Source: Crocinitomicaceae bacterium (GTDB lineage Bacteria > Bacteroidota > Bacteroidia > Flavobacteriales_D > Crocinitomicaceae). From it: a stretch of DNA of 64,000 nucleotides. Under the pieces are notes generated by a model. The model was not told the origin of the DNA and ran no database searches. It was given only the letters and a program-made list of their open reading frames with translations. The translations under genes were made by a program, and so were the position numbers. Every line of letters begins with the position of its first letter. Position 1 is the first letter of the stretch. The DNA lies in the NCBI GenBank assembly GCA_029238665.1, contig JAQWFQ010000024.1, forward strand, positions 124,001 to 188,000. Reading direction: 5' to 3'. Positions 31,545-33,910 of this stretch are shown one piece after another.

Positions 31545-31612
31545 CTAACATTTTGTTAATAACTCGCCTAAAAAAGAACAAAAAGGCCCTTCGATAATTA
31601 CCTAGAAATTGA

Positions 31613-31620
31613 TAGCTTTG
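31613..31620 (+). promoter_or_regulatory. -7 promoter element of dnaN
   Basis: TAGCTTTG matches TAnnTTTG, 24 nt before the dnaN ATG at 31645. An in-frame TTG at 31609 lies upstream of it and so would not be in this transcript. Confidence 0.5.
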
Positions 31621-31644
31621 AACGTACAAAACAAACGTTTGAAA

Positions 31645-32760
31645 ATGAATTTCGTAATATCTAGCACATCTTTATTAAAGCACCTTCAAGGAATTTCTGG
31701 AGTACTAAGCACCAACAACACGCTACCTATTCTTGACAACTTCCTGTTTGAAATTGTTGATGGACGACTAGCAGTCTCAGCTTCTGATTTAGAAACAACA
31801 ATGCGTACTTCGATGGAGATCGAAGCAAAAGAAGAAGGTAAAATTGCCATACCAGCTAAATTGCTCTTGGATGTTTTAAAGAACCTTCCAGATCAACCGT
31901 GTACATTTTCAGTAAACCCTGATAATTTTGCAGTTGAAATTGCTTACGACAATGGTAAATCTAAAATGGTTGGTTATAATGGAGATGATTTCCCTAGAAC
32001 TCCAGGGCTAGAACAGTCAAATTCTATTACTATTTCTGGAGAAATTATTTCAAATGCCATCAATAAAACATTATTTGCTACAGGAGTTGATGACTTAAGA
32101 CCTGTAATGAGCGGTGTTTTTTGTGAGTTTTCTCCAGAAAGCATCACTTTTGTTGCTACAGATGCCCATAAACTAGTTCGTTATACGAGAACAGATTCTC
32201 AAGCTTCAGGAAGCTCTTCCTTTATCTTACCAAAGAAACCACTAAACCTTTTAAAATCAAACTTAAAAGGTGATGAAGAGGTGAAGCTTGAATACAACGA
32301 TTCAAACGCCGTTTTTACATTTAACGATGTCGTATTGGTTTGCCGCTTGATTGATGGGAAATACCCAAACTACGAAGCTGTGATTCCTAAAGAGAATCCG
32401 AATGTACTTAGAATTGATAGGCTTCAATTTTTAAGTTCAATAAAACGTGTATCAATTTTTTCAAACAAAACGACACACCAAATAAAATTAAAACTAGCTG
32501 GTTCCGAGCTCTCACTATCTGCTGAAGACATTGACTTTTCAAACGAAGCAAACGAGCGTTTAACGTGTAATTATGCTGGTGACGATATGGAAATTGGCTT
32601 CAACTCTCGTTTTTTAATGGAAATGTTGAATAACCTTGATACTTCTGAAGTTCGTTTAGAGATGAGTGAACCTAGTAGAGCTGGTTTACTAATGCCATCT
32701 GAAGACAATGAGCACGAAGACATCTTAATGCTTGTTATGCCAGTTATGTTGAACAGGTAA
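31645..32760 (+). CDS. dnaN: DNA polymerase III sliding clamp (beta subunit)
   Basis: Processivity clamp of the replicase, 371 residues, three clamp folds. I chose the ATG at 31645 (MNFVISSTSLLKHLQGISGV), which matches the family N-terminus, over an upstream TTG. Recognisable segments: LPILDNFLFEI, SASDLETTMRT, TDAHKLVRY in the middle domain, GKYPNYEAVIP, and the C-terminal LMLVMPVML that ends normal clamps. It lies 100 nt after the gldFG cluster with its own promoter element and a strong terminator. No dnaA or origin is nearby. Confidence 0.96.
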   Translation: MNFVISSTSLLKHLQGISGVLSTNNTLPILDNFLFEIVDGRLAVSASDLETTMRTSMEIEAKEEGKIAIPAKLLLDVLKNLPDQPCTFSVNPDNFAVEIAYDNGKSKMVGYNGDDFPRTPGLEQSNSITISGEIISNAINKTLFATGVDDLRPVMSGVFCEFSPESITFVATDAHKLVRYTRTDSQASGSSSFILPKKPLNLLKSNLKGDEEVKLEYNDSNAVFTFNDVVLVCRLIDGKYPNYEAVIPKENPNVLRIDRLQFLSSIKRVSIFSNKTTHQIKLKLAGSELSLSAEDIDFSNEANERLTCNYAGDDMEIGFNSRFLMEMLNNLDTSEVRLEMSEPSRAGLLMPSEDNEHEDILMLVMPVMLNR

Positions 32761-32807
32761 GCACCTTTAAATTACCTTTTAAAGCAGATTGACAACTAAA
32801 TAGATTT

Positions 32808-32840
32808 AGCCAATGAAATTCATTTTTCATTGGCTTTTTT
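32808..32840 (+). terminator. Intrinsic terminator of dnaN
   Basis: Perfect 11-bp stem AGCCAATGAAA / TTTCATTGGCT with a 6-nt loop and a T run (32835-32840), 47 nt past the dnaN stop. Confidence 0.88.
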
Positions 32841-32859
32841 ATTTCTAAAAGAAGGTGTT

Positions 32860-32937
32860 GGCCATCAGAAAAAACTGTTTTAAATTTTTGATTCGTTTTG
32901 TATCAAGACAAAATGAATAAACACTGAACAAAAAATG
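32860..32937. repeat. Structured intergenic repeat, short copy (A)
   Basis: Part of the 583-nt stretch without a gene call between dnaN and the FISUMP gene. Begins GGCCATCAGAAA and ends ACAAAAAATG like copy B at 33016-33209, but lacks about 115 nt of its interior. Contains an 11-bp hairpin, ATTCGTTTTGT (32891-32901) with ACAAAATGAAT (32908-32918), one G-T pair, 6-nt loop. No protein is encoded. Confidence 0.7.
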
Positions 32938-33015
32938 ATTCGATGTTCTCTAAACTCATTAAACTTTTATCAAGCTAACCTTTTTAACAACAATTACTTC
33001 AGCAGGAACACAACC

Positions 33016-33209
33016 GGCCATCAGAAAGAACGACTCTGATAGTCAAGTAAAAACATTAGTAAGACCGAGAAGTTCCGATGGTGACCACCTAGGAAATCAC
33101 TCGGCCGCACTTTTGTTTTGCGCAGAATGAAGTCCGTTGTTTCTGCAGGTCTTGAATTTTTGGTTCGTTTTGTGTCAAGACAAAATGAACGAACGTTAAA
33201 CAAAAAATG
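33016..33209. repeat. Structured intergenic repeat, long copy (B)
   Basis: Shares both ends with copy A. The interior has nested inverted repeats: CCGAG (33065-33069) with CTCGG (33100-33104), enclosing TTCC (33073-33076) with GGAA (33092-33095) and GGT/ACC. The 3' hairpin pairs GTTCGTTTTGT (33163-33173) with ACAAAATGAAC (33180-33190). A 60-codon minus-strand reading frame (33021-33203) spans it but looks incidental. From memory, similar extragenic elements occur in other Flavobacteriia; I cannot verify this. Confidence 0.7.
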
Positions 33210-33270
33210 CCTAGCTAATACTAAGGAACCTTAAAGTCCATTTAATTCACTAAATTTAAACATACCATAA

Positions 33271-33331
33271 AACAAATAAACGCTCTAGCAATATATTGAC
33301 TAATATAATCTATAGCGTTTAGCAGATTGTT
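33271..33331. repeat. attC-like inverted repeat upstream of the FISUMP gene
   Basis: AACAA + TAAACGCTCTAG (33271-33275, 33277-33288) pairs with CTATAGCGTTTA + TTGTT (33310-33321, 33327-33331), with one mismatch and an asymmetric bulge (1 versus 5 nt), around a 21-nt AT-rich spacer. The layout, with AAC at the left end, GTT at the right end and unpaired bases on one strand, resembles integron attC sites. The match to the R'/R'' consensus is only partial. It ends 12 nt before the gene start. Confidence 0.4.
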
Positions 33332-33343
33332 GTGTTCAATTAA

Positions 33344-33910
33344 ATGAAGTACTTAACATATTTGATTACTATTTTGACCAGCCTGAACAGTTTAGGACAG
33401 GTTAATGGAACTATTGTTGACGAACGAGATTCTACAACATATGGAACTGTGACTATCGATTCGTTGGTTTGGATGACTGAAAATTTAAACTTTGAAACCA
33501 CAGGCGCTTTTCAACATCCTGATTCTTGTAACACTTGTGGTCTACTGTACACATACAGTGCCGCTAAAGATGTGTGTCCATACGGGTTTAGAATGCCTAG
33601 TGAATCTGATTGGAGTGAATTATTCACTTCGCTTGGCGGTCAGGTTGAAGTTGAAGAATATGGGACCTATTATCATGGCATAATAAATCTTCTGCAATCA
33701 GAAAAATTGTTAGACCTTAGATACTGCGGCAATTATGATGGCGATGAAAACGATTTCAAATATTGCGGAACTTATGGTGCTTATTGGTATTTGAATTATA
33801 ATGAATTTAAAGGCATTCATTTTGAAAAATCACAATATCAAGATTGGATTGGAACTGTTATGGGAGATCAATATTCAGGGCTTAGTGTTAGATGCGTTAA
33901 AGATCTGTAG
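33344..33910 (+). CDS. Exported FISUMP-domain protein (cassette-like gene)
   Basis: 188-residue secreted protein: signal peptide (KYLTYLITILTSLNSLGQ), then a Fibrobacter succinogenes major paralogous (FISUMP) domain. Signatures are YGTVTIDSLVWMTENLNF, LYTYSAAKDVCPYGFRMPS, the SDWSELF helix and the C-terminal LSVRCVKDL. The domain is common in Bacteroidota surface proteins; its function is unknown. Cysteines at SCNTCG, DVCPYG, LRYCG, KYCG and VRCV could form disulfides. It has no neighbours on its strand, is preceded by an attC-like repeat and followed directly at its TAG by CTAACAA, an arrangement like a single-gene cassette. Probably accessory and recently acquired; this is inference. Confidence 0.8.
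   Translation: MKYLTYLITILTSLNSLGQVNGTIVDERDSTTYGTVTIDSLVWMTENLNFETTGAFQHPDSCNTCGLLYTYSAAKDVCPYGFRMPSESDWSELFTSLGGQVEVEEYGTYYHGIINLLQSEKLLDLRYCGNYDGDENDFKYCGTYGAYWYLNYNEFKGIHFEKSQYQDWIGTVMGDQYSGLSVRCVKDL

Follow-up and report, generated by a model that had tools for sequence, protein, structure and literature searches.

A probable MITE-like family of intergenic Bacteroidota elements with a conserved, covarying fold

The two related repeats between a DNA polymerase III beta gene and a Fib_succ_major-domain gene in the window (the whole 64,000 nt stretch of Crocinitomicaceae DNA analysed here) belong to a family of intergenic elements that is multi-copy and patchily spread in the Bacteroidota, and in which the fold is kept by compensatory changes. 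The family is probably MITE-like: its members are short and non-coding DNA elements, would be non-autonomous, and carry a structured core of approximately 190–200 nt that is conserved. It is classed as MITE-like rather than as a proven MITE because a partial search found no cognate autonomous element with the same ends. The copies in the window are placed as follows:

32860..32937, + strand: copy A, 78 nt; truncated, 116 nt shorter than copy B
32938..33015, + strand: spacer between copies A and B, 78 nt
33016..33209, + strand: copy B, full-length element, 194 nt; homologous to the C7 copy over positions 3–184

The genes on either side, DNA polymerase III beta (31609–32760) and the Fib_succ_major-domain gene (33344–33910), are on the same strand, and this dnaN locus is intergenic. 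As in the preliminary description, two copies with common ends are present here; they share the left end GGCCATCAGAAA, and their right ends are 85% identical over 61 nt. The shortfall in the first copy, put at about 115 nt, measures 116 nt, copy A having lost the rod and most of the outer stem described below while keeping hairpin b/b'. This is the 11 bp hairpin that had been noticed before, with a G·T at pair 5 in both copies and an outermost pair that is indeed A-T in copy A and G-C in copy B. Selection for the fold had been argued from that outermost pair; a single A-T to G-C change between two copies is weak evidence for it, whereas the covariation in the wider family is decisive.

Five DNA matches to the element are found in its own genome: B, A, C32 (96%), C7 (85%), and C14 (94%, cut by the contig end). 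The C32 and C14 matches (L002 and L004) are at contig ends that overlap by exactly 133 nt and are therefore probably one copy, so that the genome probably carries three full copies plus copy A. There are thus further copies outside the window locus, at 96% and 85%, and with these and the matches in relatives given below the repeat is far beyond chance. The dnaN and pck (L004) loci are alike, with an element followed by the same 78 nt spacer and then the start of a second element, which would suggest the duplication, within this genome, of a unit made up of element, spacer, and element, after which copy A lost its rod; judging from these two loci, the spacer travels with the element. That the host species acquired these copies recently is indicated by the lack of any match in the 33 other genomes of the genus. 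Empty sites for the window copies were sought in the congeners and none was recovered, the congeners being too diverged outside the coding parts.

Other repeated sequences are present nearby. Directly left of copy A, positions 32786–32852 contain a terminator-like stretch, AGCCAATGAAATTCATTTTTCATTGGCTTTTTT, which is repeated in the same genome (C15, C7, C19) at 83–94%. Between copy B and the Fib_succ_major-domain gene, positions 33233–33344 recur in the same genome (C21, 86%), and congeners have matches to them of up to 90% (G022, two copies); the resemblance is closer than that of the coding DNA of the congeners, and this is possibly another mobile or shared upstream repeat. The flank of the C7 copy (TATAACGGTCTTGTATATGAAAAGTAGCGGGG..., L003:1790-1930) is yet another repeat of intergenic sequence, with matches of up to 90% in several congeners. 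The elements seem to sit among other repeats.

Three parts make up the core: an outer stem, a rod whose internal loops are conserved, and a 3' module in which two helices interlock. The first two of these are placed in copy B as follows:

33022..33035, + strand: outer stem P1, 5' strand, CAGAAAGAACGACT; predicted fold, with family-wide flank-pairing support
33049..33120, + strand: rod P2 (covariance model R1), with internal loops AAGA/CCGC and AAG/ATCA between covarying helices; tip variable
33131..33145, + strand: outer stem P1, 3' strand, AGTCCGTTGTTTCTG; predicted fold, with family-wide flank-pairing support

In the first alignment of the rod, containing 13 sequences, 15 of the 21 pairs change on both sides, and among 47 distinct sequences of the order all 21 do so, with 92.8% of cells paired. 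The covariation score for these 47 sequences is 0.600, against 0.209 when shuffled and no more than 0.153 for slid partners, so that the variation between copies is accompanied by base-pair covariation; a pattern-selected set of 81 others gives 0.385 against 0.138. The larger rod alignments (A4, A7) are biased towards the model, having been fitted to it, but the margins are too wide for this bias to be the cause of the covariation excess. The nested repeats CCGAG/CTCGG and TTCC/GGAA noted earlier within copy B are real helices of it, at columns 17–21/72–76 and 25–28/64–67 of the rod alignment. For the outer stem, the flanks of a copy pair with each other at 39.3, as against 27.7 for flanks swapped between copies. 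Compensatory changes support the helices of both the rod and the outer stem.

Of the two strands, the + strand gives the better fold in 116 copies and the poorer one in 15, and G-T pairs exceed A-C pairs (28 vs 9 and 48 vs 20), which indicates that the + strand is the folded one. That the core covaries, and that its + strand folds better than the complement, would suggest that it acts as RNA, this being the likelier form of the folded strand if the spread of the element is by DNA transposition. The earlier suggestion of a structured RNA is in keeping with the strongly covarying, strand-specific fold of the core, in what would be its RNA form. Whether the family represents a hitherto unknown class of bacterial RNA, noncoding and about 200 nt long (rod, invariant loops, and interlocking 3' module), dispersed by transposons in the Bacteroidota and having a definite role in protein binding, as a transposition cofactor, or as a regulator, is more doubtful, such a class being a possibility on the unlikely side.

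The helices of the 3' module are placed in copy B as follows:

33149..33155, + strand: helix a, 5' strand, GTCTTGA, then a T-run
33163..33173, + strand: hairpin b, 5' strand, GTTCGTTTTGT
33175..33181, + strand: helix a', 3' strand, TCAAGAC; inside the b/b' loop, overlapping the first two bases of b'
33180..33190, + strand: hairpin b', 3' strand, ACAAAATGAAC

Downstream of the rod the order is therefore a, T-run, b, a', b'. The hairpin mentioned above is b/b', and its loop pairs with upstream sequence to form helix a/a'. In copy A helix a/a' has decayed, GTTTTAA facing TCAAGAC with one G·T and one mismatch, as read directly from the sequence. Among the subfamilies a/a' varies in step (CTTGAC/GTCAAG, GCGTC/GACGC, TGGGAA/TTTCCA, AGGGAA/TTTCCT, TTGGCG/TGCCAA). 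Since the MAFFT alignment of the 3' module mis-registers the subfamilies, each copy was tested on its own for the interlocking helices. Of 44 copies, 22 score higher than every one of 40 dinucleotide shuffles; the arrangement is not seen in some subfamilies. The module may be a pseudoknot or, equally possibly, a switch between two hairpins, because the 0–3 nt between a' and b' may strain a pseudoknot.

A pseudoknot-like 3' module at the right end of the element recalls the RNA component of RNA-guided nuclease elements (TnpB/IscB omegaRNA), which could have been left behind by an IS200/IS605-type transposon. However, Rfam gives no match, whether to HEARO or to a related family, the bases left of GGC form no conserved motif, no gene recurs within 3 kb of the copies, and the 9 bp duplications described below also speak against such an origin, which is scarcely credible.

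Of the wider family, some part of copy B is matched in 24 of 99 relatives, mainly in two modules, at positions 41–97 and 134–178. These modules adjoin in the same order in other families of the order, so that they form one element. A pattern scan of named genomes gave 77 stretches, mostly in the Marinilabiliales (Carboxylicivirga, Saccharicrinis, Labilibacter, Labilibaculum, Marinifilum, Ancylomarina, Prolixibacteraceae) and the Flavobacteriales (Crocinitomicaceae, Cryomorpha). The covariance model R1, for which copy counts are lower bounds as the search scores a limited number of candidates, detects, within the order, copies in 20 of 299 genomes, with up to 10 counted per genome, and counts 1–42 per genome in 12 genomes from the pattern scan, including 27, 31, 5, and 1 in four Carboxylicivirga genomes. 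The preliminary description had suggested similar elements in other Flavobacteriia; these are found, and the family reaches the Marinilabiliales too. No family match was found in plasmids, phages, or viral contigs.

All 46 of the copies examined are intergenic. Their orientation relative to the neighbouring genes is mixed (13 convergent, 12 divergent, 10 on the same strand as both sides, 5 opposite to both sides) and no gene recurs within 3 kb of them, there being only chance housekeeping pairs. The position of the window element between two same-strand genes would fit a role in cis for the adjoining genes, as a regulatory element or a terminator, but the mixed orientations and the lack of a shared neighbour contradict this for the family as a whole, leaving it next to no probability.

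Some copies (L008/L011) have been retained at the same orthologous position in two species, as would also be expected of a gene passed on vertically. The elements might be a multi-copy family of small-RNA genes with a host function, occasionally carried by transposons, the use by the host conserving the fold. Orthologous copies kept in two species, covariation and invariant loop letters in two orders, the strand bias, and the presence of the same core within different inverted-repeat types all agree with this. Nevertheless, the copy number is very uneven among congeners, as in the four Carboxylicivirga genomes, most genomes of the order lack the element, as do 33 congeners of the window genome, and it has no fixed neighbours, making such a gene family unlikely.

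The MITE-like interpretation draws on the ends of certain copies. Some Marinilabiliales cores sit between terminal inverted repeats (TIRs), CAATNNTGTCCTAAATA. Six elements bounded by CAATNNTGTCCTAAATA, four of them with the rod, have 9 bp flanking duplications with 9, 9, 9, 9, 8, and 7 identities, against a mean of 2.8 out of 9 in a control with mismatched ends. A second type of inverted repeat (S. aurantiacus) is associated with 9, 8, 8, and 7 identities; its AT-rich control has a mean of 6.0, so only the 9/9 case is telling. The elements bounded by inverted repeats are approximately 180–440 nt and no transposase frame was seen inside them. In a search of 136 copies for inverted repeats with duplications, an excess over the control is present only at the highest scores, with none in the Flavobacteriales, and the window copies and other Flavobacteriales copies have no recognisable inverted repeats or target duplications. 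The site of the L030 element is empty in three congeners, which are too diverged to give exact ends. The L373 element, which is flanked by TIRs with perfect ends and has no rod, parallels copy A. The inverted-repeat ends and 9 bp duplications of some members, together with a copy number of 1–31 among the four Carboxylicivirga, support the mobile non-autonomous element that was among the readings first proposed.

At L357:438-878 the same inverted repeats, with a perfect 9 bp duplication, ATATGGGAT, enclose other sequence with no recognisable rod. At L008:1338-1757 and L011:1337-1762 one element in two related species has direct repeats of about 82 bp on its flanks, derived from the start of a NUDIX-like gene and far exceeding the 9 bp duplications elsewhere. 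Such long flanking duplications are not a general feature of the family.

A transposase with matching ends, which it had been suggested might accompany the element, was not found; among the Y1, GIY-YIG, 23S-IVP, and DUF4372/IS4 families tested, none is consistently present or adjacent. The window genome has no 23S-IVP and only large GIY-YIG proteins, small GIY-YIG genes adjoining copies in G065 only. In that genome (L089:5200-6205, L089:11642-12658) small GIY-YIG nuclease genes lie between or near copies, several of which are clustered in 40 kb; no such arrangement was seen in the other genomes. An IS4/DUF4372 gene beside a matching end (L364) is present in 2 of 12 genomes, and is therefore a coincidence or a local partner.

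Intergenic, palindromic sequences with a strand-specific fold, Y1 genes being carried by most of the relatives tested, could be REP/BIME-like palindromes moved as single-stranded DNA by a RAYT (Y1) transposase. Y1 transposase chemistry, however, makes no target duplications, and the 9 bp duplications do not fit it. There is no Y1 match in the window genome, and only 1 of 30 Y1 genes in element-rich genomes is near a copy, so Y1/RAYT is rejected as the partner, the earlier label of a REP-like sequence fails in the strict, RAYT-linked sense, and movement of this kind is very unlikely. REP/RAYT elements are intergenic palindromes in many copies (PMC2817692, PMC12306157), from which the present family differs in the lack of a Y1 gene in its own genome, the lack of adjacency, and the 9 bp target duplications.

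Under the MITE-like interpretation, the 9 bp duplications of some Marinilabiliales members are the signature left by staggered-cut DNA transposition, with the transposase provided in trans, and the window copies would descend from such TIR-bounded elements. While DNA transposition is evident for those Marinilabiliales members, for the window copies it is inferred by analogy, and the fact that their mechanism is carried over from the Marinilabiliales is a point against this explanation. As to why the fold is kept, the best guess, held with less than even confidence, is that insertions become tolerable or stable through a transcript that folds, by which neighbouring transcripts would be insulated or protected.

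Small mobile repeats are often simple palindromes, or debris in the course of decay. The present one has kept a complex fold over two bacterial orders, with compensatory changes at every rod pair, and either the life cycle of the element depends on RNA or transposition is the means by which a useful RNA spreads. These two readings are testable in cultured marine Bacteroidota, and the covariance model could annotate many unannotated intergenic regions.

ERIC/IRU, NEMIS/CREE, and RUP are bacterial MITEs that fold as RNA; they are short, intergenic, and non-coding, and have inverted-repeat ends, the inverted repeats mostly forming a single long palindrome. The present family is alike in being short, intergenic, and non-coding, in the inverted-repeat ends of some members, and in being able to fold as RNA if transcribed, but differs in that the fold belongs to a core of its own inside the element, with invariant internal loops and an interlocking 3' module; this core is conserved in both orders and occurs with inverted repeats of more than one type. 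BrickBuilt and other MITEs of Porphyromonas gingivalis are Bacteroidales MITE-like elements that are exclusively intergenic, with inverted-repeat ends and predicted stem-loops, BrickBuilt having 23 nt tandem repeats and ends of the type AAGACCTTTGCA (PMC4596501); intergenic position, predicted stem-loops, and, in some members, inverted-repeat ends are alike here, while no common sequence was seen.

No Rfam family, Flavo-1 RNA (RF01705) included, matches on the element at the gathering threshold. Searches with the motif and of the MITE, REP, and RNA-motif literature found no description of the family in open-access papers, and the family is apparently undescribed. Flavo-1 is a structured motif of the Flavobacteria with many hits per genome and no consistent orientation to transcripts (PMC9723704), and is a different family, its sole hit being below threshold and beside an element rather than on it. 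This match, at L031:1318-1471 (34.3 bits, cut-off 42), is approximately 33 nt downstream of the L031 element and in the same orientation.
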